A DNA stretch of 64,000 nucleotides from Saccoglossus kowalevskii (taxonomy: Eukaryota > Hemichordata > Enteropneusta > Harrimaniidae), in assembly GCF_000003605.2 (NCBI RefSeq), contig NW_003133315.1:145202-209201 (forward strand), written 5' to 3'. Position 1 is the stretch's first letter; the number at the start of each line of letters is the position of its first letter. Position numbers and translations under genes: made by a program. The notes below the pieces were generated by a model, which worked only from the letters and a program-made list of their open reading frames with translations, was not told the DNA's origin and made no database searches. Shown here one piece after another: positions 1 through 64,000 of this stretch.

Positions 1-22
1 TAGGTGAACGCCAAATGTTTAA
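1..22 (+). repeat. Tail end of a monomer cut by the window start
   Basis: This is the last 22 bases of a B-tail (TAGGTGAACGCC then AAATGTTTAA), continuing straight into monomer 1. The array therefore extends beyond the left edge. Confidence 0.95.
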
Positions 23-92
23 AGTAAAGCGCGATCGGGCGTGGTTAGTACTTGCATGGGAGACTCCCCGAGTAAATGAGCCATTGATTTTT
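23..92 (+). pseudogene. 5S rRNA-derived segment with Pol III internal control region (copy 1 of 68)
   Basis: Aligned without gaps to vertebrate 5S rRNA (recalled), this covers 5S positions ~50 to 97. Box A is degraded (AGTAAAGCGCGA against AGCCAAGCAGGG). The intermediate element TCGGGC is exact. Box C is GGTTAGTACTTG-C-ATGGGAGAC against GGTTAGTACTTG-G-ATGGGAGAC. From TCGGGC to the CCTG after box C I count 32 of 36 identities in the common version; copy 1 itself reads CCCG there. A five-T run at 88-92 stands where 5S position ~115-119 would be. The first ~45 nt of 5S rRNA, including the 5' strand of helix I, is not recognisable, so it cannot encode working 5S rRNA. In a real 5S gene these boxes bind TFIIIA and recruit TFIIIC and Pol III; whether they act here is unknown. 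The same segment opens every monomer below. Confidence 0.85.
88..92 (+). terminator. T5 run, candidate Pol III terminator (copy 1)
   Basis: TTTTT follows box C at close to the distance seen in true 5S genes, and is followed by CTTTC. The run is kept in nearly all copies. It is cut to four Ts in monomers 20, 29 and 51, and lengthened to seven in monomer 57. Function is inferred from position only. Confidence 0.45.
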
Positions 93-165
93 CTTTCATC
101 ACACTCACACACATAGTAAAGATATAAGGCAACGCTCCTGCATCCTTCCTTACTGTGATGGCAGT

Positions 166-173
166 TATTTATA
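166..173 (-). promoter_or_regulatory. TATAAATA-like octamer on the minus strand (copy 1)
   Basis: TATTTATA on the plus strand reads TATAAATA on the minus strand, pointing leftward into the 5S-like segment. It is repeated in nearly every monomer and altered in monomers 17, 50, 60 and 67. In AT-rich DNA such octamers can occur by chance, so promoter function is only a possibility. Confidence 0.25.
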
Positions 174-238
174 GTGGAAAATCGTGGACTTTTTGTATCT
201 ATTTTAATTAAGGAAAAGTTTTCAAATTCCTTCTAATT

Positions 239-246
239 TTCTAGAA
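239..246. promoter_or_regulatory. TTCTAGAA palindrome, HSE-like
   Basis: TTC and GAA are separated by 2 bp, as two inverted units of a heat-shock element, with extra TTC triplets just upstream at irregular spacing. The palindrome is present in almost every monomer. Two units are usually too few for strong HSF binding, so this is a weak call. Confidence 0.15.
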
Positions 247-301
247 CAAGTTGTAGATGCTGACGGTGCGTAGTAGGTTTTAAGATGTTAACACACCGTG
301 T

Positions 302-346
302 AAAGTTGTTCAAAGTGATTGCAAAGTTATGCAAAGTTATTGCAAA
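302..346 (+). repeat. Internal subrepeat: five AAAG steps at ~10.5-bp period
   Basis: AAA runs start at 302, 312, 323, 333 and 344, giving spacings of 10, 11, 10 and 11 bp. The last three units are near-identical (TTGCAAAGTT, ATGCAAAGTT, TTGCAAAGTT), so local slippage probably made them. The period equals one turn of B-DNA. Seven monomers (14, 22, 28, 30, 37, 47, 58) have lost one 10-11 bp unit, which keeps the phase. The middle unit is ATGCAAAG, ATGGAAAG or ATGTAAAG in different subfamilies. Confidence 0.8.
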
Positions 347-649
347 GTTCGTTGATGTATTGGTATGTATGACCTAAGTTGTTGGCATATAGAAACGCGC
401 AGTGGTAAAGTCGAACAATTTAATAAAAGCCAGTTCAAAGCAGCATATAGATGTTTACATGAACTCACTGTAAAATGTTAGAAAACAACATGCAATGTTC
501 AAGTAAAAAGCGAAGTAAATTTTGGCGGAGTTGCTTGTATATTAAACCTAAGTCATCGTCATGACACCCCCGCAGTTAAATTTCGAAAACAATAAGTAAA
601 TGTATCGAGAATGCCTCATAAATAAGCAGATTATCACAACAGCCAACCG

Positions 650-697
650 AAAATTCGACAACAAACTGCTTACAAAGTTGTGAAAAGCGATTGCAAA
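650..697 (+). repeat. Second A-rich block with loose ~11-bp spacing
   Basis: A runs start near 650, 663, 674, 683 and 695, with ACAAAG and TTGCAAAGTTG units resembling those of the block 350 bp upstream. The spacing is less regular than in the first block. It probably shares an origin with it, but that is inference. Confidence 0.4.
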
Positions 698-772
698 GTT
701 GCTTGTTTCAATCGGTATTGTTACCTGAGATATCATATTAACAATTACCATAGTTAAAAGTTCGAAAATGTG

Positions 773-780
773 TATAAATA
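773..780 (+). promoter_or_regulatory. TATAAATA octamer on the plus strand (copy 1)
   Basis: GTGTATAAATATTTCG is kept in nearly every monomer and points rightward toward the next 5S-like segment. In monomers 32 and 57 it reads GTGAATAAATATTTCG and in 33 GTGAATACATATTTCG, so the TATA core is lost there. Together with the minus-strand octamer it makes a convergent pair around each 5S-like segment. Confidence 0.25.
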
Positions 781-969
781 TTTCGTGAATTGTTGTAAAA
801 TTACCGTAGTGTTACTCCGAGTAAGTAGAGGTCATAGGTCAAATATGGAAGGTACTTTGTGCCAGCGATAACGATTTTAAAACATTTAAAAACATAAAAT
901 ACCCGCCAATTTGGCTTAACTTTAAATAATTCATGCAGCTGTATGTTTAGATGACCGCCAAAAGTTGAA

Positions 970-1039
970 AGTAAAGCGCGATCGGGCGTGGTTAGTACTT
1001 GCATGGGAGACTCCCTGAGTAAATGAGCCATTGATTTTT
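970..1039 (+). pseudogene. 5S rRNA-derived segment (copy 2, common version)
   Basis: This is the most frequent version of the segment, ending GGGAGACTCCCTGAG where copy 1 has GGGAGACTCCCCGAG. The T run is at 1035-1039. If initiation followed 5S geometry, a transcript would start near 921 and end in the T run, about 117 nt long. A TTTAAATA at 921-928 could instead act as a TATA-like element for a start some 25-30 bp further in. Both are inference; no transcript is known. Confidence 0.83.
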
Positions 1040-1916
1040 CTTTCATCACACTCACACACATAGTAAAGATATAAGGCAACGCTCCTGCATCCTTCCTTAC
1101 TGTGATGGCAGTTATTTATAGTGGAAAATCGTGGACTTTTTGTATCTATTTTAATTAAGGAAAAGTTTTCAAATTCCTTCTAATTTTCTAGAACAAGTTG
1201 TAGATGCTGACGGTACGTAGTAGGTTTTAAGATGTTAACACACCGTGTAAAGTTGTTCAAAGTGATTGCAAAGTTATGCAAAGTTATTGCAAAGTTCGTT
1301 GATGTATTGGTATGTATGACCTAAGTTGTTGGCATATAGAAACGCGCAGTGGTAAAGTCGAACAATTTAATAAAAGCCAGTTCAAAGCAGCATATAGATG
1401 TTTACATGAACTCACTGTAAAATGTTAGAAAACAACATGCAATGTTCAAGTAAAAAGCGAAGTAAATTTTGGCGGAGTTGCTTGTATATTAAACCTAAGT
1501 CATCGTCATGACACCCCCGCAGTTAAATTTCGAAAACAATAAGTAAATGTATCGAGAATGCCTCATAAATAAGCAGATTATCACAACAGCCAACCGAAAA
1601 TTCGACAACAAACTGCTTACAAAGTTGTGAAAAGCGATTGCAAAGTTGCTTGTTTCAATCGGTATTGTTACCTGAGATATCATATTAACAATTACCATAG
1701 TTAAAAGTTCGAAAATGTGTATAAATATTTCGTGAATTGTTGTAAAATTACCGTAGTGTTACTCCGAGTAAGTAGAGGTCATAGGTCAAATATGGAAGGT
1801 ACTTTGTGCCAGCGATAACGATTTTAAAACATTTAAAAACATAAAATACCCGCCAATTTGGCTTAACTTTAAATAATTCATGCAGCTGTATGTTTAGATG
1901 ACCGCCAAAAGTTTAA
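970..1916 (+). repeat. Satellite monomer 2 (947 bp)
   Basis: Long form, nearly identical to monomer 1 and so a recent neighbour duplication. Its end is a hybrid: A-tail GATGACCGCC followed by B-type GTTTAAAG. Confidence 0.95.
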
Positions 1917-2853
1917 AGTAAAGCGCGATCGGGCGTGGTTAGTACTTGCATGGGAGACTCCCTGAGTAAATGAGCCTTTGATTTTTCTTTCATCACACTC
2001 ACACACATAGTAAAGATATAAGGCAACGCTCCTGCATCCTTCCTTACTGTGATGGCAATTATTTATAGTGGACTTTTTGTAACTATTTTAATTAAGGAAA
2101 AGTTTTCAAATTCCTTCTAATTTTCTAGAACAAGTTGTAGATGCTGTCGGTACGTAGTAGGATTTAAGATGTTAACACACCGTGTAACGTTGTTCAAAGT
2201 GATTGCAAAGTTATGCAAAGTTATTGCAAAGTTCGTTGATGTATTGGTATGTATGACCTAAGTTGTTGGCATATAGAAACGCGCAGTGGTAAAGTCGAAC
2301 ATTTAATAAAAGCCAGTTCAAAGCAGCATATAGATGTTTACATGAACTCACTGTAAAATGTTAGAAAACAGCATGCAATGTTCAAGGGAAAAAGCGAAGG
2401 AAATTTTGGCGGAGTTGCTTGTATATTGAACCTAAGTCATCGTCATGACACCACCGCAGTTAAATTTCGAAAACAATAACTAATTGTATCGAGAATGCCT
2501 CATAAATAAGCAGATTATCACAACAGCTAACCGAAAATTCGACAACAAACTGCTTACAAAGTTGTGAAAAGCGATTGCAAAGTTGCTTGTTTCAATCGGT
2601 ATTGTTATCTGAGATATCATATTAACAATTACCATAGTTAAAAGTTCGAAAATGTGTATAAATATTTCGTGAATTGCTGTAAAATTACCGCAGTGTTACT
2701 CCAAGTAAGGAGAGGTGATAGGTCAAATATCGAAGGTACTTTGTGCCAGCGATAATGATGTTAAAACATTTAAAAACATGAAATACCCGCCAATTCGGAT
2801 TAATTTTAAATAATTCATGCAGCTGTGTGTTTAGGTGAACGCCAAATGTTTAA
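1917..2853 (+). repeat. Satellite monomer 3 (937 bp)
   Basis: Short form, B-tail. It has CACCACCGCAG in place of the C5 run, AACTAATTG, and the rare CCGCAGTG, which is shared with monomer 34. Confidence 0.95.
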
Positions 2854-3800
2854 AGTAAAGCGCGATCGGGCGTGGTTAGTACTTGCATGGGAGACTCCCC
2901 GAGTAAATTAGCCATTGATTTTTCTTTCATCACACTCACACACATAGTAAAGATATAAGGCAACGCTCCTGCATCCTTCCTTACTGTGATGGCAGTTATT
3001 TATAGTGGAAAATCGTGGACTTTTTGTATCTATTTTAATTAAGGAAAAGTTTTCAAATTCCTTCTAATTTTCTAGAACAAGTTGTAGATGCTGACGGTAC
3101 GTAGTAGGTTTTAAGATGTTAACACACCGTGTAAAGTTGTTCAAAGTGATTGCAAAGTTATGCAAAGTTATTGCAAAGTTCGTTGATGTATTGGTATGTA
3201 TGACCTAAGTTGTTGGCATATAGAAACGCGCAGTGGTAAAGTCGAACAATTTAATAAAAGCCAGTTCAAAGCAGCATATAGATGTTTACATGAACTCACT
3301 GTAAAATGTTAGAAAACAACATGCAATGTTCAAGTAAAAAGCGAAGTAAATTTTGGCGGAGTTGCTTGTATATTAAACCTAAGTCATCGTCATGACACCC
3401 CCGCAGTTAAATTTCGAAAACAATAAGTAAATGTATCGAGAATGCCTCATAAATAAGCAGATTATCACAACAGCCAACCGAAAATTCGACAACAAACTGC
3501 TTACAAAGTTGTGAAAAGCGATTGCAAAGTTGCTTGTTTCAATTGGTATTGTTACCTGAGATATCATATTAACAATTACCATAGTTAAAAGTTCGAAAAT
3601 GTGTATAAATATTTCGTGAATTGTTGTTAAATTACCGTAGTGTTACTCCGAGTAAGTAGAGGTCATAGGTCAAATATGGAAGGTACTTTGTGCCAGCGAT
3701 AACGATTTTAAAACATTTAAAAACATAAAATACCCGCCAATTTGGCTTAACTTTAAATAATTCATGCAGCTGTATGTTTAGATGACCGCCAAAAGTTGAA
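2854..3800 (+). repeat. Satellite monomer 4 (947 bp)
   Basis: Long form, A-tail, CCCCGAG after box C and TTTTTGTATC, as in monomers 1 and 35. AATTGG replaces AATCGG near 3541, a CpG transition. Confidence 0.95.
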
Positions 3801-4738
3801 AGTAAAGCGCGATCGGGCGTGGTTAGTACTTGCATGGGAGACTCCCTGAGTAAATGAGCCATTGATTTTTCTTTCATCACACTCACACACATAGTAAAGA
3901 TATAAGGCAACGCTCCTGCATCCTTCCTTACTGTGATGGCAATTATTTATAGTGGACTTTTTGTAACTATTTTAATTAAGGAAAAGTTTTCAAATTCCTT
4001 CTAATTTTCTAGAACAAGTTGTAGATGCTGTCGGTACGTAGTAGGTTTTAAGATGTTAACACACCGTGTAAAGTTGTTCAAAGTGATTGCAAAGTTATGG
4101 AAAGTTATTGCAAAGTTCGTTGATGTATTGGTATGTATGACCTAAGTTGTTGGCATATAGAAACACGCAGTGGTAAAGTCGAACAATTTAATAAAAGCCA
4201 GTTCAAAGCAGCATATAGATGTTTACATGAACTCACTGTAAAATGTTAGAAAACAGCATGCAATGTTCAAGTAAAAAAGCGAAGGAAATTTTGGCGGAGT
4301 TGCTTGTATATTAAACCTAAGTCATCGTCATGACACCCCCGCAGTTAAATTTCGAAAACAATAAGTAAATGTATCGAGAATGCCTCATAAATAAGCAGAT
4401 TATCACAACAGCCAACCGAAAATTCGACAACAAACTGCTTACAAAGTTGTGAAAAGCGATTGCAAAGTTGCTTGTTTCAATCGGTATTGTTACCTGAGAT
4501 ATTATATTCACAATTACCATAGTTAAAAGTTCGAAAATGTGTATAAATATTTCGTGAATTGCTGTTAAATTACCGTAGTGTTACTCCGAGTAAGTAGAGG
4601 TCATAGGTCAAATATGGAAGGTACTTTGTGCCAGCGATAACGATTTTAAAACATTTAAAAACATAAAATACCCGCCAATTTGGCTTAACTTTAAATAATT
4701 CATGCAGCTGTATGTTTAGATGACCGCCAAAAGTTGAA
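3801..4738 (+). repeat. Satellite monomer 5 (938 bp)
   Basis: Short form, A-tail, ATGGAAAG subrepeat version. It carries the rare GATATTATATTCAC near 4497, shared only with monomer 41. Confidence 0.95.
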
Positions 4739-5675
4739 AGTAAAGCGCGATCGGGCGTGGTTAGTACTTGCATGGGAGACTCCCTGAGTAAATGAGCCAT
4801 TGATTTTTCTTTCATCACACTCACACACATAGTAAAGATATAAGGCAACGCTCCTGCATCCTTCCTTACTGTGATGGCAATTATTTATAGTGGACTTTTT
4901 GTAACTATTTTAATTAAGGAAAAGTTTTCAAATTCCTTCTAATTTTCTAGAACAAGTTGTAGATGCTGTCGGTACGTAGTAGGTTTTAAGATGTTAACAC
5001 ACCGTGTAAAGTTGTTCAAAGTGATTGCAAAGTTATGGAAAGTTATTGCAAAGTTCGTTGATGTATTGGTATGTATGACCTAAGTTGTTGGCATATAGAA
5101 ACGCGCAGTGGTAAAGTCGAACAATTTAATAAAAGCCAGTTCAAAGCAGCATATAGATGTTTACATGAACTCACTGTAAAATGTTAGAAAACAGCATGCA
5201 ATGTTCAAGTAAAAAAGCGAAGGAAATTTTGGCGGAGTTGCTTGTATATTAAACCTAAGTCATCGTCATGACACCCCCGCAGTTAAATTTCGAAAACAAT
5301 AAGTAAATGTATCGAGAATGCCTCATAAATAAGCAGATTATCACAACAGCCAACCGAAAATTCGACAACAAACTGCTTACAAAGTTGTGAAAAGCGATTG
5401 CAAAGTTGCTTGTTTCAATCGGTATTGTTACCTGAGATATCATATTAACAATTACCATAGTTAAAAGTTCGAAAATGTGTATAAATATTTCGTGAATTGC
5501 TGTTAAATTACCGTAGTGTTACTCCGAGTAAGTAGAGGTCATAGGTCAAATATGGAAGGTACTTTGTGCCAGCGATAACGATTTTAAAACATTTAAAAAC
5601 ATAAAATACCCGCCAATTTGGCTTAACTTTAAATAATTCATGCAGCTCTATGTTTAGATGACCGCCAAAAGTGAA
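4739..5675 (+). repeat. Satellite monomer 6 (937 bp)
   Basis: Short form, ATGGAAAG version, A-tail with CTCTATG instead of CTGTATG. One T is missing from AAAAGTTGAAAG just before monomer 7. Confidence 0.95.
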
Positions 5676-6623
5676 AGTAAAGCGCGATCGGGCGTGGTTA
5701 GCACTTGCATGGGAGACTCCCTGAGTAAATGAGCCATTGATTTTTCTTTCATCACACTCACACACATAGTAAAGATATAATGCAACGCTCCTGCATCCTT
5801 CCTTACTGTGATGGCAGTTATTTATAGTGGAAAATCGTGGACTTTTTGTAACTATTTTAATTAAGGAAAAGTTTTCAAATTCCTTCTATTTTTCTAGAAC
5901 AAGTTGTAGATGCTGACGGTACGTAGTAGGTTTTAAGATGTTAACACACCGTGTAAAGTTGTTCAAAGTGATTGCAAAGTTATGCAAAGTTATTGCAAAG
6001 TTCGTTGATGTATTGGTATGTATGACCTAAGTTGTTGGCATATAGAAACGCGCAGTGGTAAAGTCGAACAATTTAATAAAAGCCAGTTCAAAGCAGCATA
6101 TAGATGTTTACATGAACTCACTGTAAAATGTTAGAAAACAGCATGCAATGTTCAAGTAAAAAAGCGAAGGAAATTTTGGCGGAGTTGCTTGTATATTAAA
6201 CCTAAGTCATCGTCATGACACCCCCGCAGTTAAATTTCGAAAACAATAAGTAAATGTATCGAGAATGCCTCATAAATAAGCAGATTATCACAACAGCCAA
6301 CCGAAAATTCGACAACAAACTGCTTACAAAGTTGTGAAAAGCGATTGCAAAGTTGCTTATTTCAATCGGTATTGTTACCTGAGATATCATATTAAGAATT
6401 ACCATAGTTAAAAGTTCGAAAATGTGTATAAATATTTCGTGAATTGCTGTTAAATTACCGTAGTGTTACTCCGAGTAAGTAGAGGTCATAGGTCAAATAT
6501 GGAAGGTACTTTGTGCCAGCGATAACGATTTTAAAACATTTAAAAACATAAAATACCCGCCAATTTGGCTTAACTTTAAATAATTCATGCAGCTCTATGT
6601 TTAGATGACCGCCAAAAGTTGAA
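5676..6623 (+). repeat. Satellite monomer 7 (948 bp)
   Basis: Long form. TTGCTTATTTC near 6353 is shared with monomer 60, and ATAATGCAACG after the CA-rich stretch with monomers 13, 16, 29, 38 and 59. A-tail with CTCTATG. Confidence 0.95.
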
Positions 6624-7560
6624 AGTAAAGCGCGATCGGGCGTGATTAGTACTTGCATGGGAGACTCCCTGAGTAAATGAGCCATTGATTTTTCTTTCAT
6701 CACACTCACACACATAGTAAAGATATAAGGCAACGCTCCTGCATCCTTCCTCACTGTGATGGCAATTATTTATAGTGGAATTTTTGTAACTATTTTAATT
6801 AAGCAAAAATTTTCAAATTCCTTCTAATTTTCTAGAACAAGTTGTATAAGCTGTCGACACGTAGTAGGTTTTAAGATGTTAACATACCGCGTAAAGTTGT
6901 TCAAAGTGATTGCAAAGTTATGCAAAGTTATTGCAAAGTTCGTTGATGTATTGGTATGTATGACCTAAGTTGTTGGCATATAGAAACGCGCAGTGGTAAT
7001 GTCGAACAATTTAATAAAAGCCAGTTCAAAGCAGCATATAGATGTTTACATGAACTGACTGTAAAATTTTAGAAAACAGCATGCAATGTTCAAGGGAAAA
7101 AGCGAAGGAAATGTTGGCGGAGTTGCTTGTATATTAAACCTAAGTCATTGTCATGTCACCCCGCAGTTAAATTTCGAAAACAATAAGTAAATATATCGAG
7201 AATGCCTCATAAATAAGCAGATTATCACAACAGCCAACCAAAAATTCGACAACAAACTGCTTACAAAGTTGTGAAAAACGATTGCAAAGTTGCTTGTTTC
7301 AATCGGTATTGTTATCTGAGATATCATATTAATAATTACCATAGTTAAAAGTTCGAAAATGTGTATAAATATTTCGTGAATTGCTGTAAAATTACCGTAG
7401 TGTTACTCCATGTAAGTAGAGGTCATAGGTCAAATATCGAAGGTACTTTGTGCCAGCGATAATGATGTTAAAACATTTAAAAACATAAAATACCCGCCAA
7501 TTCGGATTGACTTTAAATAATTCCTGCAGCTGTGTGTTTAGGTGAATGCCAAATGTTTAA
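6624..7560 (+). repeat. Satellite monomer 8 (937 bp)
   Basis: Short form of the GTGGAATTTTT kind with CTGTCGACACG. The 5S-like segment has GTGATTAG before the TACTTGC of box C. AAAAACGATTG and GAATGCC match monomer 24. B-tail. Confidence 0.95.
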
Positions 7561-8508
7561 AGTAAAGCGCGATCGGGCGTGGTTAGTACTTGCATGGGAG
7601 ACTCCCTGAGTAAATGAGCCATTGATTTTTCTTTCATCACACTCACACACATAGTAAAGATATAAGGCAACGATCCTGCATCCTTCCTTACTGTGATGGC
7701 AGTTATTTATAGTGGAAAATCGTGGACTTTTTGTAACTATTTTAATTAAGGAAAAGTTTTCAAATTCCGTCTAATTTTCTAGAACAAGTTGTAGATGCTG
7801 ACGGTACGTAGTAGGTTTTAAGATGTTAACACACCGTGTAAAGTTGTTCAAAGTGATTGCAAAGTTATGTAAAGTTATTGCAAAGTTCGTTGATGTATTG
7901 GTATGTATGACCTAAGTTGTTGGCATATAGAAACGCGCAGTGGTAAAGTCGAACAATTTAATAAAAGCCAGTTCAAAGCAGCATATAGATGTTTACATGA
8001 ACTCACTGTAAAATGTTAGAAAACAGCATGCAATGTTCAAGTAAAAAAGCGAAGGAAATTTTGGCGGAGTTGCTTGTATATTAAACCTAAGTCATCGTCA
8101 TGACACCCCCGCAGTTAAATTTCGAAAACAATAAGTAAATGTATCGAGAATGCCTCATAAATAAGCAGATTATCACAACAGCCAACCGAAAATTCGACAA
8201 CAAACTGCTTACAAAGTTGTGAAAAGCGATTGCAAAGTTGCTTGTTTCAATCGGTATTGTTACCTGAGATATCATATTAAGAATTACCATAGTTAAAAGT
8301 TCGAAAATGTGTATAAATATTTCGTGAATTGCTGTAAAATTACCGTAGTGTTACTCCATGTAAGTAGAGGTCATAGGTCAAATATCGAAGGTATTTTGTG
8401 CCAGCGATAATGATGTTAAAACATTTAAAAACATAAAATACCCGCCAATTCGGATTGACTTTAAATAATTCATGCAGCTGTGTGTTTAGGTGAACGCCAA
8501 ATGTTTAA
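7561..8508 (+). repeat. Satellite monomer 9 (948 bp)
   Basis: Long form, ATGTAAAG subrepeat version, CCATGTAAG and B-tail. AACGATCCTGC near 7670 matches monomer 25. Confidence 0.95.
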
Positions 8509-9445
8509 AGTAAAGCGCGATCGGGCGTGGTTAGTACTTGCATGGGAGACTCCCTGAGTAAATGAGCCATTGATTTTTCTTTCATCACACTCACACACAT
8601 AGTAAAGATATAAGGCAACGCTCCTGCATCCTTCCTTACTGTGATGGCAGTTATTTATAGTGGACTTTTTGTAACTATTTTAATTAAGGAAAAGTTTTCA
8701 AATTCCTTCTAATTTTCTAGAACAAGTTGTAGATGCTGACGGTACGTAGTAGGTTTAAGATGTTAACACACCGTGTAAAGTTGTTCAAAGTGATTGCAAA
8801 GTTATGTAAAGTTATTGCAAAGTTCGTTGATGTATTGGTATGTATGACCTAAGTTGTTGGCATATAGAAACGCGCAGTGGTAAAGTCGAACAATTTAATA
8901 AAAGCCAGTTCAAAGCAGCATATAGATGTTTACATGAAATCACTGTAAAATGTTAGAAAACAGCATGCAATGTTCAAGTAAAAAAGCGAAGGAAATTTTG
9001 GCGGAGTTGCTTGTATATTAAACCTAAGTCATCGTCATGACACCCCCGCAGTTAAATTTCGAAAACAATAAGTAAATGTATCGAGAATGCCTCATAAATA
9101 AGCAGATTATCACAACAGCCAACCGAAAATTCGACAACAAACTGCTTACAAAGTTGTGAAAAGCGATTGCAAAGTTGCTTGTTTCAATCGGTATTGTTAC
9201 CTGAGATATCATATTAAGAATTACCATAGTTAAAAGTTCGAAAATGTGTATAAATATTTCGTGAATTGCTGTAAAATTACCGTAGTGTTACTCCATGTAA
9301 GTAGAGGTCATAGGTCAAATATCGAAGGTATTTTGTGCCAGCGATAATGATGTTAAAACATTTAAAAACATAAAATACCCGCCAATTCGGATTGACTTTA
9401 AATAATTCATGCAGCTGTGTGTTTAGGTGAACGCCAAATGTTTAA
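8509..9445 (+). repeat. Satellite monomer 10 (937 bp)
   Basis: Short form, ATGTAAAG version, B-tail. One T is missing in GTAGGTTTAAG, as in monomers 11, 15 and 26. GAAATCACTG is private to this copy. Confidence 0.95.
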
Positions 9446-20744: not shown

Positions 20745-21719
20745 AGTAAAGCGCGATCGGGCGTGGTTTAGTATACTTGCATGGGGAGAACTTCCCTGAG
20801 AGTAATAGAGGCCCATTGATTTTTTCTTTTCATCCCACATCTCCCACCCCATTGTAAAGGATTATAAAGGCCAAACGGATTCCTTGCATCCTTTCCTTTA
20901 CTGTGATGGCAGTTATTTATAGTGGAAAAATCGTGGACTTTTTTGTAACTATTTTAATTAAGGAAAAGTTTTCAAATTCCTTCTAATTTTCTAGAACAAG
21001 TTGTAGATGCTGACGGTACGTAGTAGGTTTTAAGATGTTAACACACCGTGTAAAGTTGTTCAAAGTGATTGCAAAGTTATGTAAAGTTATTGCAAAGTTC
21101 GTTGATGTATTGGTATGTATGACCTAAGTTGTTGGCATATAGAAACGCGCAGTGGTAAAGTCGAACAATTTAATAAAAGCCAGTTCAAAGCAGCATATAG
21201 ATGTTTACATGAACTCACTGTAAAATGTTAGAAAACAGCATGCAATGTTCAAGTAAAAAAGCGAAGGAAATTTTGGCGGAGTTGCTTGTATATTAAACCT
21301 AAATTATTGTCATGACACCCCGCAGTTAAATTTCGAAAACAATAAGTAAATATATCGAGAATGCCTCATAAATAAGCAGATTATCACAACAGCCAACCGA
21401 AAATTCGACAACAAACTGCTTACAAAGTTGTGAAAAGCGATTGCAAAGTTGCTTGTTTCAATCGGTATTGTTACCTGAGATATCATATTAACAATTACCA
21501 TAGTTAAAAGTTCGAAAATGTGTATAAATATTTCGTGAATTGCTGTAAAATTACCGTAGTGTTACTCCAAGTAAGTAGAGGTCATAGGTCAAATATAGAA
21601 GGTACTTTGTGCCAGCGATAATGATGTTAAAACATTTAAAAACATGAAATACCCGCCAATTCGGATTAACTTTAAATAATTCATGCAGCTGTGTGTTTAG
21701 GTGAACGCCAAATGTTTAA
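20745..21719 (+). repeat. Satellite monomer 23 (975 bp, disturbed)
   Basis: The longest copy, with about 28 extra bases, all within roughly 20765-20950. Many are single inserted or duplicated bases (GGTTTAGTATACTTG, GGGGAGAACTTCCC), which destroy box C spacing. The rest is a normal long form with B-tail. This is probably sequence error, though a real decayed copy cannot be excluded. Confidence 0.93.
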
Positions 21720-53668: not shown

Positions 53669-54606
53669 AGTAAAGCGCGATCGGGCGTGGTTAGTACTTG
53701 CATGGGAGACTCCCTGAGTAAATGAGCCATTGATTTTTCTTTCATCACACTCACACACATAGTAAAGATATAAGGCAACGCTCCTGCATTCTTCCTTACT
53801 GTGATGGCAATTATTTATAGTGGAAAATCGTGAAATTTTTGTAACTATTTTATTTAAGGAAAAGTTTTCAAATTCCTTCTAATTTTCTAGAACAAGTTGT
53901 AGAAGCTGACGGTACGTAGTAGGTTTTAAGATGTTAACACACCGTGTAAAGTTGTTCAAAGTGATTGCAAAGTTATTGCAAAGTTCGTTGATGTATTGGT
54001 ATGTATGACCTAAGTTGTAGGCATATAGAAACGCGCAGTGGTAAAGTCGAACAATTTAATAAAAGCCAGTTCAAAACAGCATATAGATGTTTACATGAAC
54101 TGACTGTAAAGTGTTAGAAAAAAGCATGCAATGTTCAAGGGAAAAAGCGAAGGAAATGTTGGCGGAGTTGCTTGTATATTAAACCTAAGTCATCGTCATG
54201 ACACTCCCGCAGTTAAATTTCGAAAACAATAAGTAAATATATCGAGAATGCCTCATAAATAAGCAGATTATCACAACAGCCAACCGAAAATTCGACAACA
54301 AACTGCGTACAAAGTTTTGAAAAGCGTTTGCAAAGTTGCTTGTTTCAATCGGTATTGTTACCTGAGATATCATATTAACAATTACCATAGTTAAAAGTTC
54401 GAAAATGTGTATAAATATTTCGTGAATTGCTGTAAAATTACCGTAGTGTTACTCCAAGTAAGTAGAGGTCATAGGTCAAATATCGAAGGTACTTTGTGCC
54501 AGCGATAATGATGTTAAAACATTTAAAAACATGAAATACCCGCCAATTCGGATTAACATTAAATAATTCATGCAGCTGTGTGTTTAGGTGAACGCCAAAT
54601 GTTTAA
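53669..54606 (+). repeat. Satellite monomer 58 (938 bp)
   Basis: Long form (CGTGAAATTTTT), one AAAG unit lost. GTTGTAGGCAT, CAAAACAGC and CTGCGTACAAAG as in 37. ACACTCCCGC replaces the C5 run. B-tail. Confidence 0.95.
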
Positions 54607-55554
54607 AGTAAAGCGCGATCGGGCGTGGTTAGTACTTGCATGGGAGACTCCCTGAGTAAATGAGCCATTGATTTTTCTTTCATCACACTCACACACATAG
54701 TAAAGATATAATGCAACGCTCCTGCATCCTTCCTTACTGTGATGGCAGTTATTTATAGTGGAAAATCGTGGACTTTTTGTAACTATTTTAAGTAAGGAAA
54801 AGTTTTCAAATTCCTTCTAATTTTCTAGAACAAGTTGTAGATGCTGACGGTACGTAGTAGGTTTTAAGATGTTAACACACCGTGTAAAGTTGTTCAAAGT
54901 GATTGCAAAGTTATGCAAAGTTATTGCAAAGTTCGTTGATGTATTGGTATGTATGACCTAAGTTGTTGGCATATAGAAACGCGCAGTGGTAAAGTCGAAC
55001 AATTTAATAAAAGCCAGTTCAAAGCAGCATATAGATGTTTACATGAACTCACTGTAAAATGTTAGAAAACAGCATGCAATGTTCAAGTAAAAAAGCGAAG
55101 GAAATTTTGGCGGAGTTGCTTGTATATTAAACCTAAGTCATCGTCATGACACCCCCGCAGTTAAATTTCCAAAACAATAAGTAAATGTATCGAGAATGCC
55201 TCATAAATAAGCAGATTATCACAACAGCCAACCGAAAATTCGAAAACAAACTGCTTACAAAGTTGTGAAAAGCGATTGCAAAGTTGCTTGTTTCAATCGG
55301 TATTGTTATCTGAGATATCATATTAACAATTACCATAGTTAAAAGTTCGAAAATGTGTATAAATATTTCGTGAATTGCTGTAAAATTACCTTAGTGTTAC
55401 TCCAAGTAAGTAGAGGCCATAGGTCAAATATCGAAGGTACTTTGTGCCAGCGATAATGATATTAAAACATTTAAAAACATGAAATACCCGCCAATTCGGA
55501 TTAACTTTAAATAATTCATGCAGCTGTGTGTTTAGGTGAACGCCAAATGTTTAA
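54607..55554 (+). repeat. Satellite monomer 59 (948 bp)
   Basis: Long form with ATAATGCAACG and TTTTAAGTAAGG (as 16). ACCTTAGTG and TATCTGAG as in 11. B-tail. Confidence 0.95.
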
Positions 55555-56502
55555 AGTAAAGCGCGATCGGGCGTGGTTAGTACTTGCATGGGAGACTCCC
55601 TGAGTAAATGAGCCATTGATTTTTCTTTCATCACACTCACACACATAGTAAAGATATAAGGCAACGCTCCTGTATCCTTCCTTACTGTGATGGCAGTTTT
55701 TTATAGTGGAAAATCGTGGACTTTTTGTAACTATTTTAATTAAGGAAAAGTTTTCAAATTCCTTCTAATTTTCTAGAACAAGTTGTAGATGCTGACGGTA
55801 CGTAGTAGGTTTTAAGATGTTAACACACCGTGTAAAGTTGTTCAAAGTGATTGCAAAGTTATGCAAAGTTATTGCAAAGTTCGTTGATGTATTGGTATGT
55901 ATGACCTAAGTTGTTGGCATATAGAAACGCGCAGTGGTAAAGTCGAACAATTTAATAAAAGCCAGTTCAAAGCAGCATATAGATGTTTACATGAACTCAC
56001 TGTAAAATGTTAGAAAACAGCATGCAATGTTCAAGTAAAAAAGCGAAGGAAATTTTGGCGGAGTTGCTTGTATATTAAACCTAAGTCATCGTCATGACAC
56101 CCCCGCAGTTAAATTTCGAAAACAATAAGTAAATGTATCGAGAATGCCTCATAAATAAGCAGATTATCACAACAGCCAACCGAAAATTCGACAACAAACT
56201 GCTTACAAAGTTGTGAAAAGCGATTGCAAAGTTGCTTATTTCAATCGGTATTGTTACCTGAGATATCATATTAAGAATTACCATAGTTAAAAGTTCGAAA
56301 ATGTGTATAAATATTTCGTGAATTGCTGTTAAATTACCGTAGTGTTACTCCGAGTAAGTAGAGGTCATAGGTCAAATATGGAAGGTACTTTGTGCCAGCG
56401 ATAACGATTTTAAAACATTTAAAAACATAAAATACCCGCCAATTTGGCTTAACTTTAAATAATTCATGCAGCTCTATGTTTAGATGACCGCCAAAAGTTG
56501 AA
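55555..56502 (+). repeat. Satellite monomer 60 (948 bp)
   Basis: Long form. CTCCTGTATCC as in 12, TTGCTTATTTC as in 7. The minus-strand TATA is altered (TTTTTATAG). A-tail with CTCTATG. Confidence 0.95.
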
Positions 56503-57440
56503 AGTAAAGCGCGATCGGGCGTGGTTAGTACTTGCATGGGAGACTCCCTGAGTAAATGAGCCATTGATTTTTCTTTCATCACACTCACACACATAGTAAA
56601 GATATAAGGCAACGCTCCTGCATCCTTCCTCACTGTGATGGCAATTATTTATAGTGGAATTTTTGTAACTATTTTAATTAAGGAAAAATTTTCAAATTCC
56701 TTCTAATTTTCTAGAACAAGTTGTATAAGCTGTCGACACGTAGTAGGTTTTAAGATGTTAACATACCGTGTAATGTTGTTCAAAGTGATTGCAAAGTTAT
56801 GCAAAGTTATTGCAAAGTTCGTTGATGTATTGGTATGTATGACCTAAGTTGTTGGCATATAGAAACGCGCAGTGGTAAAGTCGAACAATTTAATAAAAGC
56901 CAGTTCAAAGCAGCATATAGATGTTTACATGAACTCACTGTAAAATGTTAGAAAACAGCATGCAATGTTCAAGGGAAAAAGCGAAGGAAATTTTGGCGGA
57001 GTTGCTTGTATATTAAACCTAAGTCATCGTCCTGACACCCCCGCAGTTAAATTTCGAAAACAATAACTAATTGTATCGAGAATGCCTCATAAATAAGCAG
57101 ATTATCACAACAGCTAACCGAAAATTCGACAACAAACTGCTTACAAAGTTGTGAAAAGCGATTGCAAAGTTGCTTGTTTCAATCGGTATTGTTACCTGAG
57201 ATATCATATTAACAATTACCATAGTTAAAAGTTCGAAAATGTGTATAAATATTTCGTGAATTGCTGTTAAATTACCGTAGTGTTACTCCGAGTAAGTAGA
57301 GGTCATAGGTCAAATATGGAAGGTACTTTGTGCCAGCGATAACGATTTTAAAACATTTAAAAACATAAAATACCCGCCAATTTGGCTTAACTTTAAATAA
57401 TTCATGCAGCTCTATGTTTAGATGACCGCCAAAAGTTGAA
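56503..57440 (+). repeat. Satellite monomer 61 (938 bp)
   Basis: Short GTGGAATTTTT form. CTTCCTCACTG is shared with 8. GTAATGTTG, AACTAATTG and GTCCTGACACC. A-tail with CTCTATG. Confidence 0.95.
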
Positions 57441-58378
57441 AGTAAAGCGCGATCGGGCGTGGTTAGTACTTGCATGGGAGACTCCCTGAGTAAATGAGCC
57501 ATTGATTTTTCTTTCATCACACTCACACACATAGTAAAGATATAAGGCAACGCTCCTGCATCCTTCCTTACTGTGATGGCAATTATTTATAGTGGACTTT
57601 TTGTAACTATTTTAATTAAGGAAAAGTTTTCAAATTCCTTCTAATTTTCTAGAACAAGTTGTAGATGCTGTCGGTACGTAGTAGGTTTTAAGATGTTAAC
57701 ACACCGTGTACAGTTGTTCAAAGTGATTGCAAAGTTATGGAAAGTTATTGCAAAGTTCGTTGATGTATTGGTATGTATGACCTAAGTTGTTGGCATATAG
57801 AAACGCGCAGTGGTAAAGTCGAACAATTTAATAAAAGCCAGTTCAAAGCAGCATATAGATGTTTACATGAACTCACTGTAAAATGTTAGAAAACAGCATG
57901 CAATGTTCAAGTAAAAAAGCGAAGGAAATTTTGGCGGAGTTGCTTGTATATTAAACCTAAGTCATCGTCATGACACCCCCGCAGTTAAATTTCGAAAACA
58001 ATAAGTAAATGTATCGAGAATGCCTCATAAATAAGCAGATTATCACAACAGCCAACCGAAAATTCGACAACAAACTGCTTACAAAGTTGTGAAAAGCGAT
58101 TGCAAAGTGGCTTGTTTCAATCGGTATTGTTACCTGAGATATCATATTAACAATTACCATAGTTAAAAGTTCGAAAATGTGTATAAATATTTCGTGAATT
58201 TCTGTTAAATTACCGTAGTGTTACTCCGAGTAAGTAGGGGTCATAGGTCAAATATGGAAGGTACTTTGTGCCAGCGATAACGATTTTAAAACATTTAAAA
58301 ACATAAAATACCCGCCAATTTGGCTTAACTTTAAATAATTCATGCAGCTGTATGTTTAGATGACCGCCAAAAGTTGAA
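57441..58378 (+). repeat. Satellite monomer 62 (938 bp)
   Basis: Short form, ATGGAAAG, GTACAGTTG as in 46. TTTCTGTTAAATT is shared with 42. A-tail. Confidence 0.95.
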
Positions 58379-59316
58379 AGTAAAGCGCAATCGGGCGTGG
58401 TTAGTACTTGCATGGGAGACTCCCTGAGTAAATGAGCCATTGATTTTTCTTTCATCACACTCACACACATAGTAAAGATATAAGGCAACGCTCCTGCATC
58501 CTTCCTTACTGTGATGGCAATTATTTATAGTGGAATTTTTGTAACTATTTTAATTAAGGAAAAGTTTTCAAATTCCTTCTAATTTTCTAGAACAAGTTGT
58601 AGATGCTGACGGTACGTAGTAGGTTTTAAGATGTTAACACACCGTGTAAAGTTGTTCAAAGTGATTGCAAAGTTATGGAAAGTTATTGCAAAGTTCGTTG
58701 ATGTATTGGTATGTATGACCTAAGTTGTTGGCATATAGAAACGCGCAGTGGTAAAGTCGAACAATTTAATAAAAGCCAGTTCAAAGCAGCATATAGATGT
58801 TTACATGAACTCACTGTAAAATGTTAGAAAACAGCATGCAATGTTCAAGTAAAAAAGCGAAGGAAATTTTGGCGGAGTTGCTTGTATATTAAACCTAAGT
58901 CATCGTCATGACACCCCCGCAGTTAAATTTCGAAAACAATAAGTAAATGTATCGAGAATGCCTCATAAATAAGCAGATTATCACAACAGCCAACCGAAAA
59001 TTCGACAACAAACTGCTTACAAAGTTGTGAAAAGCGATTGCAAAGTGGCTTGTTTCAATCGGTATTGTTACCTGAGATATCATATTAACAATTACCATAG
59101 TTAAAAGTTCGAAAATGTGTATAAATATTTCGTGAATTGCTGTTAAATTACCGTAGTGTTACTCCGAGTAAGTAGAGGTCATAGGTCAAATATGGAAGGT
59201 ACTTTGTGCCAGCGATATCGATTTTAAAACATTTAAAAACATAAAATACCCGCCAATTTGGCTAAACTTTAAATAATTCATGCAGCTGTATGTTCAGATG
59301 ACCGCCATAAGTTGAA
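58379..59316 (+). repeat. Satellite monomer 63 (938 bp)
   Basis: GCGCAATCGGG in the 5S-like segment. Short GTGGAATTTTT form joined to CTGACGG, ATGGAAAG version. A-tail with GTTCAGATGACC and GCCATAAG. Confidence 0.95.
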
Positions 59317-60247
59317 AGTAAAGCGCGATCGGGCGTGGTTAGTACTTGCATGGGAGACTCCCTGAGTAAATGAGCCATTGATTTTTCTTTCATCACACTC
59401 ACACACATAGTAAAGATATAAGGCAACGCTCCTGCATCCTTCCTTACTGTGATGGCAATTATTTATAGTGGACTTTTTGTAACTATTTTAATTAACGAAA
59501 AGTTTTCAAATTCCTTCTAATTTTCTAGACAAGTTGTAGATGCTGTCGGTACGTAGTAGGTTTAGATGTTAACACACCGTGTAAAGTGTTCAAAGTGATT
59601 GCAAAGTTATGGAAAGTTATTGCAAAGTTCGTTGATGTATTGGTATGTATGACTAAGTTGTTGGCATATAGAACGCGCAGTGGTAAAGTCGAACAATTAA
59701 TAAAAGCCAGTTCAAAGCAGCATATAGATGTTTACATGAACTCACTGTAAAATGTTAGAAAACAGCATGCAATGTTCAAGTAAAAAAGCGAAGGAAATTT
59801 TGGCGGAGTTGCTTGTATATTAAACCTAAGTCATCGTCATGACACCCCCGCAGTTAAATTTCGAAAACAATAAGTAAATATATCGAGAATGCCTCATAAA
59901 TAAGCAGATTATCACAACAGCCAGCCGAAAATTCGACAACAAACTGCTTACAAAGTTGTGAAAAGCGATTGCAAAGTTGCTTGTATCAATCGGTATTGTT
60001 ACCTGAGATATCATATTAACAATTACCATAGTTAAAAGTTCGAAAATGTGTATAAATATTTCGTGAATTGCTGTAAAATTACCGTAGTGTTACTCCAAGT
60101 AAGTAGAGGTCATAGGTCAAATATCGAAGGTACTTTGTGCCAGCGATAATGATGTTAAAACATTTAAAAACATGAAATACCCGCCAATTCGGATTAACAT
60201 TAAATAATTCATGCAGCTCTATGTTTAGATGACCGCCAAAAGTTGAA
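59317..60247 (+). repeat. Satellite monomer 64 (931 bp)
   Basis: Short form with single-base losses clustered between 59520 and 59700 (TCTAGACAAG, GGTTTAGATG, TAAAGTGTTC, GACTAAG, AGAACGCG, CAATTAATAAA). The second half is of the CCAAGTAAG kind, ending in an A-tail with CTCTATG. Confidence 0.95.
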
Positions 60248-61194
60248 AGTAAAGCGCGATCGGGCGTGGTTAGTACTTGCATGGGAGACTCCCTGAGTAA
60301 ATGAGCCATTGATTTTTCTTTCATCACACTCACACACATAGTAAAGATATAAGGCAAAGCTCCTGCATCCTTCCTTACTGTGATGGCAGTTATTTATAGT
60401 GGAAAATCGTGGACTTTTTGTAACTATTTTAATTAAGGAAAAGTTTTCAAATTCCTTCTAATTTTCTAGAACAAGTTGTAGATGCTGACGGTACGTAGTA
60501 GGTTTTAAGATGTAAACACACCGTGTAAAGTTGTTCAAAGTGATTGCAAAGTTATGCAAAGTTATTGCAAAGTTCGTTGATGTATTGGTATGTATGACCT
60601 ATGTTGTTGGCATATAGAAACGCGCAGTGGTAAAGTCGAACAATTTAATAAAAGCCAGTTCAAAGCAGCATATAGATGTTTACATGAACTGACTGTAAAA
60701 TGTTAGAAAACAGCATGAAATGTTCAAGGGAAAAAGCGAAGGAAATGTTGGCGGAGTTGCTTGTATATTAAACCTAAATTATTGTCATGACACCCCGCAG
60801 TTAAATTTCGAAAACAATAAGTAAATATATCGAGAATGCCTCATAAATAAGCAGATTATCACAACAGCCAACCGAAAATTCGACAACAAACTGCTTACAA
60901 AGTTGTGAAAAGCGATTGCAAAGTTGCTTGTTTCAATCGGTATTGTTACCTGAGATATCATATTAACAATTACCATAGTTAAAAGTTCGAAAATGTGTAT
61001 AAATATTTCGTGAATTGCTGTAAAATTACCGTAGTGTTACTCCAAGTAAGTAGAGGTCATAGGTCAAATATAGAAGGTACTTTGTGCCAGCGATAATGAT
61101 GTTAAAACATTTAAAAACATGAAATACCCGCCAATTCGGATTAACTTTAAATAATTCATGCAGCTGTGTGTTTAGGTGAACGCCAAATGTTTAA
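60248..61194 (+). repeat. Satellite monomer 65 (947 bp)
   Basis: Long form, AGGCAAAGCTCC, AAATTATTGTCATG with a four-C run, TATAGAAGG. B-tail ending TTTAAAATAAAGCG as before monomers 24 and 53. Confidence 0.95.
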
Positions 61195-62142
61195 AATAAA
61201 GCGCGATCGGGTGTGGTTAGTACTTGCATGGGAGACTCCCTGAGTAAATGAGCCATTGATTTTTCTTTCATCACACTCACACACATAGTAAAGATATAAG
61301 GCAACGATCCTGCATCCTTCCTTACTGTGATGGCAGTTATTTATAGTGGAAAATCGTGGACTTTTTGTAACTATTTTAATTAAGGAAAAGTTTTCAAATT
61401 CCTTCTAATTTTCTAGAACAAGTTGTAGATGCTGACGGTACGTAGTAGGTTTTAAGATGTTAACACACCGTGTAAAGTTGTTCAAAGTGATTGCAAAGTT
61501 ATGCAAAGTTATTGCAAAGTTCGTTGATGTATTGGTATGTTTGACCTAAGTTGTTGGCATATAGAAACGCGCAGTGGTAAAGTCGAACAATTTAATAAAA
61601 GCCAGTTCAAAGCAGCATATAGATGTTTACATGAACTCACTGTAAAATGTTAGAAAACAGCATGCAATGTTCAAGTAAAAAAGCGAAGAAAATTTTGGCG
61701 GAGTTGCTTGTATATTAAACCTAAGTCATCGTCATGACACCCCCGCAGTTAAATTTCGAAAACAATAAGTAAATGTATCGAGAATGCCTCATAAATAAGC
61801 AGATTATCACAACAGCCAACCGAAAATTCGACAACAAACTGCTTACAAAGTTGTGAAAAGCGATTGCAAAGTTGCTTGTTTCAATCGGTATTGTTACCTG
61901 AGATATCATATTAAGAATTACCATAGTTAAAAGTTCGAAAATGTGTATAAATATTTCGTGAATTGCTGTTAAATTACCGTAGTGTTACTCCGAGTAAGAA
62001 GAGGTCATAAGTCAAATATGGAAGGTACTTTGTGCCAGCGATAACGATTTTAAAACATTTAAAAACATAAAATACCCGCCAATTTGGCTTAACTTTAAAT
62101 AATTCATGCAGCTGTATGTTTAGATGACTGCCAAAAGTTGAA
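61195..62142 (+). repeat. Satellite monomer 66 (948 bp)
   Basis: CGGGTGTGG in the 5S-like segment. Long form, ACGATCCTGC. The right half shares GTCATAAGTC and GACTGCC with 26. GTAAGAAGAGG is private. A-tail. Confidence 0.95.
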
Positions 62143-63080
62143 AGTAAAGCGCGATCGGGCGTGGTTAGTACTTGCATGGGAGACTCCCTGAGTAAATGAG
62201 CCATTGATTTTTCTTTCATCACACTCACACACATAGTAATGATATAAGGCAACGCTCCTGCATCCTTCCTTACTGTGATGGCAATTACTTATAGTGGAAT
62301 TTTTGTAACTATTTTAATTAAGGACAAATTTTCAAATTCCTTCTAATTTTCTAGAACAAGTTGTAGAAGCTGTCGACACGTAGTAGGTTTTAAGATGTTA
62401 ACACACCGTGTAAAGTTGTTCAAAGTGATTGCAAAGTTATGCAAAGTTATTGCAAAGTTCGTTGATGTATTGGTATGTATGACCTAAGTTGTTGGCATAT
62501 AGAAACGCGCAGTGGTAAAGTCGAACAATTTAATAAAAGCCAGTTCAAAGCAGCATATAGATGTTTACATGAACTGACTGTAAAATGTTAGAAAACAGCA
62601 TGCAATGTTCAAGGGTAAAAGCGAAGGAAATGTTGGCGGAGTTGCTTGTATATTAAACCTAAGTCATCGTCATGACACCCCCGTAGTTAAATTTCGAAAA
62701 CAATAAGTAAATGTATCGAGAATGCCTCATAAATAAGCAGATTATCACAACAGCCAACCGAAAATTCGACAACAAACTGCTTACAAAGTTGTGAAAAGCG
62801 ATTGCAAAGTTGCTTGTTTCAATCGGTATTGTTACCTGAGATATCATATTAACAATTACCATAGTTAAACGTTCGAAAATGTGTATAAATATTTCGTGAA
62901 TTGCTGTTAAATTACCGTAGTGTTACTCTGAGTAAGTAGAGGTCATAGGTCAAATATGGAAGGTACTTTGTGCCAGCGATAACGATTTTAAAAACATTTA
63001 AAAACATAAAATACCCGCCAATTTGGCTTAACTTCAATAATTCATGTATCTCTATGTTTAGATGACCGCCAAAAGTTGAA
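62143..63080 (+). repeat. Satellite monomer 67 (938 bp)
   Basis: Short GTGGAATTTTT form. The minus-strand TATA is altered (TTACTTATAG). CTCTGAGTAAG and ATTCATGTATCTCTATG as in 57. Confidence 0.95.
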
Positions 63081-64000
63081 AGTAAAGCGCGATCGGGCGT
63101 GGTTAGTACTTGCATGGGAGACTCCCTGAGTAAATGAGCCATTGATTTTTCTTTCATCACACTCACACACATAGTAAAGATATAAGGCACGCTCCTGCAT
63201 CCTTCCTTACTGTGATGGCAATTATTTATAGTGAACTTTTTGTACTATTTAATTAAGAAAGTTTCAAATCCTTCTAATTTTCTAGAACAAGTGTAAATGC
63301 TGTCGGTACGTAGTAGTTTTTAAGATGTTACACATTCGTGTAAAGTTGTTCAAAGTGATTGCAAAGTTATTCAAAGTTATTGCAAAGTTCGTTGATGTAT
63401 TGGTATGTATGACCTAAGTTGTTGGCATATAGAAACGCGCAGTGGTAACGTCGAACAATTTAATAAAAGCCAGTTCAAAGCAGCATATAGATGTTTACAT
63501 GAACTCAATGTAAAATGTTAGAAAACACCATGCAATGTTCAAGTAAAAAAGCGAAGGAAATTTTGGCGGAGTTGCTTGTATATTAAACCTAAGTCATCGT
63601 CATGACACCCCCGCAGTTAAATTTCGTAAACAATAAGTAAATGTATCGAGAATGCCTCATAAATAAGCAGATTATCACAACAGCTAACCGAAAATTTGAC
63701 AACAAACTGCTTACAAAGTTGTGAAAAGCGATTGCAAAGTTGCTTGTTTCAATCGGTATTGTTTACCTGAGATATCATATTAACAATTACCATAGTTAAA
63801 AAGTTTGAAAAATGTGTATAAATATTTTCGTGAATTGCTGTAAAATTATCCGTAGTGTTACTTCGAAGTAAGTAAAGGTCATAGGTCAAATATCGAAAGG
63901 TACTTTGTGCCAGTGATAATGATGTTAAAAACATTTTAAAAAACATGAAATACCCGCCCAATTCCGGATTAACTTTAAATAATTTCAATGCAACTGTGTG
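63081..64000 (+). repeat. Satellite monomer 68 (cut by window end, noisy)
   Basis: Short form with many single-base losses at 63186-63345 and many single-base gains at 63760-64000 (GTTTACCTG, AAAAACATTTTAAAAAAC, CCCGCCCAATTCCGG). It stops inside a B-type tail, so the array probably continues. Confidence 0.93.

Follow-up and report, generated by a model that had tools for sequence, protein, structure and literature searches.

Organization of the array

The window, a stretch of 64,000 nt that closes a 209,201-bp contig of Saccoglossus kowalevskii, consists of 68 head-to-tail satellite units spaced 927-971 bp apart, all on the + strand with none reversed, which bears out the original prediction of 68 repeats at ~940 bp. 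The array fills the entire contig, with 222 units. Their lengths fall into two classes, about 938 and about 948 bp, because a 10-bp variant carried by about 36% of 221 contig units is either present or absent. No higher-order repeat is detectable, with mean unit identity at 0.974 for lag 1 versus 0.970-0.973 for lags 2-40. Each unit contains one block homologous to positions 49-91 of the 5S rRNA gene. The features are as follows:

1..64000, + strand: tandem array of 68 units, end of the 209,201-bp contig
22..64, + strand: 5S-derived block of the first unit, by alignment to host 5S (box A part 22-30, TCGGGC 35-40, core 35-64)
174..183, + strand: 10-bp presence/absence variant, GTGGAAAATC
969..1011, + strand: 5S-derived block of the second unit, by alignment to host 5S (box A part 969-977, TCGGGC 982-987, core 982-1011)
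982..1928, + strand: complete unit of 947 bp, from core start to next core start
1035..1039, + strand: T run 24 nt past the core, putative place of the Pol III terminator
20750..20830, + strand: irregular block copy with many one-base insertions, probably a read error

The 5S-derived block

The host's own 5S genes were located in the genome, outside the window. Presumably animal-like, they match the satellite consensus better than a human 5S sequence does. The core (TCGGGCGTGGTTAGTACTTGCATGGGAGAC) is identical to the host genes at 30/30 positions, the host TTGCATGG is present in it, and the block as a whole differs from host positions 49-91 by one substitution plus two one-base indels whose shifts offset each other. 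Against the human 5S, the consensus aligns ungapped over positions 54-97 with 37/44 identities and a score of 53, while the best of 300 dinucleotide shuffles scored 22. Since the 68 copies share a common ancestor, the significance is that of one match; on these scores, the single match exceeds chance by far. The original prediction held that the monomers bear a 5S internal control region and proposed the host's 5S genes as a check; their core identity, far above chance, upholds it, and the presence of a 5S-derived block in the satellite monomers is confirmed as a real observation. The rest of the 5S gene is unrecognizable in the window array, as had also been claimed: in the window consensus, 5S similarity in the flanks of the block does not rise above that of shuffles.

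In the same consensus, box A, the intermediate element and box C are intact at 5S spacing; the core of the second unit, for example, closes with the box C part ATGGGAGAC. Exact copies in the window number 61 for the intermediate element TCGGGC, 54 for GGTTAGTACTTG and 65 for ATGGGAGAC. The joined 30-mer core is found 47 times exactly and 66 times with at most 3 mismatches (0 on the opposite strand), and hence 2 of the 68 units exceed three mismatches: a core with a deletion at ~9452 and one full of small insertions at ~20754. A T run, the putative terminator, lies 24-32 nt past the core, both in the window consensus and in 10/10 units of five other arrays, and a run of four or more T follows within 45 nt of 65/65 GGGAGAC sites in the window.

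A 5S covariance model, another check that had been proposed, gave a different outcome. The 64 kb contain 0 matches to Rfam 5S (RF00001) at the gathering score, and no 5S appears among the sub-threshold matches of 2.9 kb; a single block reaches 15.9 bits (E 0.41), the threshold being 38 bits. Furthermore, the unit body has no significant match to 5S spacers outside the gene, in a comparison that comprised one 1,139-bp 5S unit and 1,960 bp of contig C2212; the regular 5S unit is 1,579 bp long. Given the missed Rfam threshold and the unrelated sampled spacers, the window array is, judged from its sequence, a 5S rDNA-derived satellite and not a 5S array. Arranged in tandem, with an rDNA-like length and a 5S promoter block, the units would also suit a cluster of functional 5S rRNA genes or an array of recent pseudogenes derived from such a cluster, but the covariance results rule out a gene cluster and true 5S arrays are located elsewhere in the genome, which leaves this reading with next to no probability.

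Several other searches came back empty. A coding origin was rejected, the single Pfam match from three reading frames (E 0.31) being far under the cut-off. ARAGORN, run with the bacterial code, returned 0 tRNA genes, and sub-threshold snoRNA and sRNA matches were taken as chance. The exact 19-mer is found 0 times in viral and prokaryote collections, and the box C variant, searched as a text string, in 0 papers of the literature.

Related repeats in the genome

Near-matches to the core 30-mer number 8,519 genome-wide. They reside in the true 5S arrays, in a 216-bp satellite that contains a complete 5S-type gene, in the 938-bp family, whose arrays are 82-87% identical to one another or to the window, and in a 728-bp relative about 67-70% alike. 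The genome carries several 5S-derived tandem families, of which the 938-bp unit represents one.

Some relatives retain more of the gene. In C590, the 5S similarity extends over host positions 35-105 (77%), and the score of its 5S tail is equaled by fractions of 0.0137 and 0.0017 of shuffles; the corresponding fractions are 0.0023 for unit 2 of C1414 and 0.038 for both C1534 and C1747, all being single-test values among nine relatives, some of them marginal for the tail. By the same test the tail is undetected in the window consensus (0.71) and in units 1, 3 and 4 of C1414 (0.22-0.76), while the 5S head is found in none of the nine relatives except C1747 (0.024). Since the tail is present in some deep relatives and not in the window, the promoter core would have outlasted the remainder of the gene.

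Conservation of the core

Within the array, the core is conserved to an average degree: roughly one in three 30-nt stretches varies as little, and of the 938 consensus 30-mers, 359 occur in a larger number of exact copies. Among six arrays picked by the core, variable sites amount to 1/30 in the core versus 280/938 (P 0.0003), a contrast weakened by the choice of arrays via the core itself, as is evident from arrays picked by an outside probe (3/30 versus 149/938, P 0.27). A shortened core occurs in 2/24 units of the six core-picked arrays. Units 1, 3 and 4 of C1414, which were not core-picked and are the rows that count in this test (unit 2 being left out), retain 28, 26 and 27 of the 30 core positions, compared with 79%, 70% and 80% identity elsewhere; together with C1714, the combined P for core retention is 0.012. 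Genome-wide, subtracting the 4,141 sites with a 5S tail from the 8,519 leaves about 4,400 core sites, versus 3,048 for the control, one full 30-mer, at the same limit.

The core is the most widespread among the stretches counted genome-wide, and it is retained in deep relatives. From the genome-wide counts and the four units not picked by the core, we lean towards a slower decay of the core; that selection maintains a function of it is a tentative proposition, which we hold to be somewhat doubtful.

Comparison with known repeats

5SHindIII-DNA of Hoplias malabaricus, mapped to centromeres, has a 360-bp unit in which 95 bp are 5S and 265 bp resemble the 5S spacer (PMC2713275). It is likewise a tandem satellite of 5S rDNA descent, whereas the window unit measures about 938 bp, with 43 nt of 5S and no match to the sampled spacers. 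PcP190 of frogs, for which transcripts are reported, has a unit of about 190 bp, 120 bp of which make up its 5S part (PMC11675491); it too is a 5S-derived satellite with the 5S part conserved and the remainder variable, and is much closer to the 216-bp satellite than to the 938-bp one. A 5S part of 95-120 bp, as in both of these, is lacking in the window consensus.

The 5S promoter region without other 5S parts, an Ajax/SINE3-like trait, is what the window satellite has. The Ajax elements of nemerteans, in which only this region (box A, intermediate element, box C) is left, are LTR elements of 421-434 bp with a PBS and 5-bp target-site duplications (PMC10886601), whereas the window is a tandem satellite with no known LTR. 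The Cassandra retrotransposons also carry a 5S promoter that mirrors the box C variant of their host, although they are plant LTR elements and not a satellite (PMC10853983).

Origin of the array

The account we favor, and consider probable, is the capture of a 5S fragment followed by tandem amplification and decay to the core. Long ago, a satellite monomer would have acquired a segment of a 5S rRNA gene of the host, reaching roughly from box A as far as the terminator; tandem amplification would have spread the unit, which then split into diverged arrays and relatives (the 938-bp clades and the 728-bp form). In the window subfamily, the 5S part would have decayed past recognition, and only 43 nt belonging to the internal control region would have survived. 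The remaining core, with its 30 nt identical to the host 5S promoter, may still bind TFIIIA and thereby possibly recruit TFIIIC, and it may give rise to a short Pol III transcript that terminates in the T run lying about 24 nt past it. The array would be mainly ordinary satellite DNA in which the core decays more slowly than the remainder, either through binding that aids persistence or through its manner of origin. The observed part of this account comprises the homology to host 5S, the tandem layout, the relatives with longer 5S similarity and the wide retention of the core. Since the tail is undetected in the window and the head in all but one of the nine relatives, the capture of a headless 5S fragment, or of a short piece alone, is also possible.

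Other explanations of the core were weighed against this account. Selection could keep it as a docking site, comparable to the CENP-B box, the arrays forming a TFIIIA/TFIIIC lattice or sink that aids transcription, clustering or chromatin. The contrast in the six core-picked arrays, the retention in units not so picked and the excess of tail-less core sites over the single control 30-mer all point this way; against it stand the average conservation within the array, the outside-probe arrays, the shortened cores and the C1714/C2219 clade, found without the core probe, whose intermediate element is broken (TCGATC). We judge this explanation rather unlikely. The original prediction is supported in part: the roles it named for the array, as a working TFIIIA/TFIIIC lattice, a driver of satellite RNA or a mark of chromatin boundaries, are hypothetical. 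Gene conversion with the copies in the 5S and 216-bp families, which number in the thousands, would keep the shared stretch alike without any function, and the core is the sole stretch common to the satellite and the 5S/216-bp families, which it matches best where the 938-bp arrays diverge elsewhere. However, differences from 5S in box A remain in all eight arrays compared, and 43 nt is short for gene conversion; this explanation is improbable.

The satellite could also stem from a SINE3 or Ajax-like retroelement that bore a 5S promoter and was later amplified in tandem; the core would have been kept during the mobile phase. Ajax likewise has only the 5S promoter region and is diverged upstream (PMC10886601), and the head is lost here too. 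The large contigs C1414 and C1747 carry isolated or decayed pieces, but C1414 contains several decayed tandem units and not a single insertion, no tested reading frame matches a transposon protein, and an unsystematic inspection, which covered these isolated copies in part, turned up no LTRs, tails or target-site duplications. We find retroelement descent unlikely, and retain fragment capture as the preferred origin.

Significance

5S-derived satellites are known; new here is a variant with a ~938-bp unit and a 43-nt piece of the 5S promoter. A practical caution follows, as a motif search for 5S genes in this genome would return thousands of non-genes. Few satellites have a recognizable protein-binding site. 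The best known, the CENP-B box, opened centromere biology. The 5S internal control region could be a box shared by the 938-, 728- and 216-bp families at thousands of sites, with one 30-nt TFIIIA/TFIIIC docking site kept amid turnover of the unit body, so that the arrays would be marked or transcribed by the 5S machinery; we put this forward as a long shot. The genome offers a graded series, with real 5S arrays at one end, a satellite containing an entire 5S-type gene in between and units with the promoter core alone at the other, and thus allows a direct question, namely whether a Pol III promoter affects the upkeep, transcription or packing of a satellite.

The array and its monomer

The window is tandem array throughout. 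A fuzzy search with the 30-nt core, a stretch of the 5S internal control region that starts with the intermediate element (IE) TCGGGC, finds 68 units, 68/68 on the + strand, with match starts from 27 to 63085. The original prediction of a 5S-like motif recurring 68 times at ~940 bp is borne out by these units, which lie 927-971 bp apart. Exact counts in the window are 61 for TCGGGC, 54 for GGTTAGTACTTG, 65 for ATGGGAGAC and 47 for the 30-mer. When the remaining 145,201 bases of the contig, C2499, are included, all of it is array, with 222 units and none reversed. The consensus from 221 units is 938 bp long (mean pairwise identity 0.971), and units fall into two length classes because of a 10-bp variant that about 36% of them carry.

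Positions on C2499
145202-209201 of 209201: the window, reaching the contig end
26902-27706 (outside the window): odd-length unit, with 134 bp missing just before the core
109461-110487 (outside the window): odd-length unit, with an 86-bp partial duplication after the core

One-base insertions are in excess at about 20750-20830 of the window and in its last 300 bases, mainly in short single-base runs, as in uncorrected long reads.

Identity with 5S

Alignment of the monomer to five known 5S genes gives scores of 34-53, versus shuffle maxima of 22-28 (300 shuffles each). The genome's true 5S genes were located on three contigs (47 scored matches at 105-113 bits, of 18,217 first-look candidates); their usual spacing is some 1,139 bp for C3485 and some 1,579 bp for C2212 and C3801. 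The true arrays are of two kinds, sampled as L016 (C3485) and L018 (C2212), with different spacers and the unusual box C TTGCATGG. The satellite core, TCGGGCGTGGTTAGTACTTGCATGGGAGAC, agrees with these host genes at 30/30 positions, bearing out the proposed 5S homology; it shares TTGCATGG with them, where the five known genes have TTGGATGG, TTAGATGG or TTGGATCG. From box A onward (5S positions 49-91), the alignment to host 5S holds one substitution and two one-base indels; the indels cancel, and box spacing is therefore preserved.

Outside this block of about 43 nt, 5S similarity of the window consensus is not above that of shuffles (0.24 upstream, 0.71 downstream), in keeping with the claim that only the promoter part is left. 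Under lenient scoring, one BLAST match continues over the 5S tail (75% over 93 columns). The 5S spacers gave a best E of 0.35 outside the gene, in a comparison that covered 1,960 bp from C2212 and a single 1,139-bp unit. Rfam returned 0 matches in the 64 kb at gathering score, and none of seven sub-threshold matches in 2.9 kb was 5S. One block alone scored 15.9 bits (E 0.41) with the Rfam 5S model, so the covariance-model check proposed with the prediction fell short of the gathering score.

5S-derived families across the genome

At <=3 mismatches, the 30-mer occurs at 5,172 + 3,347 places in the genome, and its reversed control at 0. The first 100 places were listed, and families were assigned from those examined: true 5S arrays and the following.

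Tandem families and pieces carrying the core
C111, C242, C404, C554, C576: 216-bp satellite, a full 5S-type gene and about 97 bp more
C2149, C2291: 938-bp family, window's subfamily, 99.3% and 97.9% identical to the window consensus
C124/C525, C389/C482, C324, C1714/C2219: 938-bp family, clades at 83-87%
C590:14500-16000 (L057): 728-bp unit; among the matches listed, C115, C883, C1909 and C2063 have equal spacing
C1414, C1747: decayed pieces on large contigs

The 728-bp and 938-bp units are 67-70% identical over 487 and 171 bp. On C1747, a 195-kb contig, a solitary core copy (L060, 77950-78850) comes immediately after 364 bp of a 20/40-bp tandem repeat.

The 216-bp satellite holds a complete second 5S type, seen for example at L034:1007-1126 (C111); on L034, 12 whole copies score 74-94 bits and one cut copy 44. 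When its consensus was mapped by hand to the Rfam structure, omitting one inserted base, 34/34 pairs were kept relative to host 5S: 29 are unaltered, 3 differ at both bases and 2 at one. This preserved pairing suggests a founding sequence that had been maintained as RNA. The copies are now diverse, with a mean pi of 0.109 over 75 units (core 0.104, 5S part 0.092, spacer 0.129).

Genome-wide, 4,141 of the 8,519 core sites at <=3 mismatches have a 5S/216-type tail (in sampled 216-bp loci, the core pattern occurs 82 times and the tail pattern 86), and removing this type leaves about 4,400-4,600 for the superfamily of 938-bp and 728-bp units. In the 47-nt bin where the monomer diverges least, a control 30-mer has 3,048 sites at <=3 mismatches, a 24-mer from its place 2,529, and a 34-mer continuing from the core end, in the window's own form and so missing other clades, 254. 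Core and 24-mer counts in sampled loci are 66 and 68 in the window, 39 and 24 in core-picked arrays, and 8 and 12 in 24-mer-picked arrays. Judged by one full control 30-mer, the core is the most widespread of the stretches counted, which is no more than suggestive of selection on it; in the 728-bp family, the control stretch may have diverged too much to be counted.

Retention of the core and probable decay of its flanks

In arrays chosen by an exact match to the core (24 units from five contigs plus the window consensus), a choice that itself favours low core variability, 1/30 core sites vary versus 280/938 (hypergeometric P 0.0003), and in divergence the core falls within the lowest 6 of 938 windows. 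Per unit, the core differs by 4.6% and the rest by 18.3% (rank 12 of 938); it is shortened in 2/24 units. For arrays chosen by a probe outside the core, the figures are 3/30 versus 149/938 (four contigs, P 0.27), and C1714 and C2219 carry TCGATC as IE plus one box C change. Within C2499, core conservation is ordinary: 160 exact copies in 222 units, with 359/938 consensus 30-mers having more. Units u1, u3 and u4 of C1414, reached through a neighbouring unit and not through their own cores, retain 28, 26 and 27 of 30 core positions, with 79%, 70% and 80% identity outside the core (P 0.031, 0.029 and 0.11). Together with C1714, which retains 27/30 at 89% (P 0.59), they give a combined P of 0.012, though three of the four lie on one contig.

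Similarity to 5S is longer on C590 (positions 35-105, 77%). When the 40 nt after the core were compared with the 5S tail, the fraction of shuffles reaching the score was 0.0137 and 0.0017 for C590, 0.0023 for C1414 u2, and 0.038 each for C1534 and C1747; no signal was found in C1414 u1, u3 and u4 (0.22-0.76) or the window (0.71). The head test gave 0.024 for C1747 and 0.12-0.96 for eight other sequences. For the first arrays (12 sequences), tail and head tests spanned 0.003-0.77 and 0.011-0.90. The simplest reading is that the insert spanned box A to the terminator, and that the tail decays while the core stays.

A candidate Pol III promoter

TFIIIA binds the internal control region of 5S genes, recruiting TFIIIC, TFIIIB and Pol III. 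In the window's units, the order and spacing of box A, IE and box C are those of 5S. The window consensus has a T run 24-32 nt past the core, as do 10/10 units of five other arrays; T4 or longer lies <=45 nt from 65/65 GGGAGAC sites in the window, and T5 from 63. On this arrangement, TFIIIA may bind the window's units, and a transcript of some 100-130 nt might arise from them.

Relation to known 5S-derived repeats

The satellites 5SHindIII (PMC2713275) and PcP190 (PMC11675491) include 95-120 bp of 5S, whereas the window's satellite has the promoter core only. Ajax likewise holds just the 5S promoter, but is a retroelement (PMC10886601), and the box C of Cassandra mirrors that of its host (PMC10853983). 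Judged by titles and abstract openings, the literature showed no satellite in which just the 5S promoter core is left, which is weak evidence for novelty. The window is a real 5S-derived satellite whose promoter core is the last recognisable 5S part, and the genome is rich in 5S-derived tandem families.
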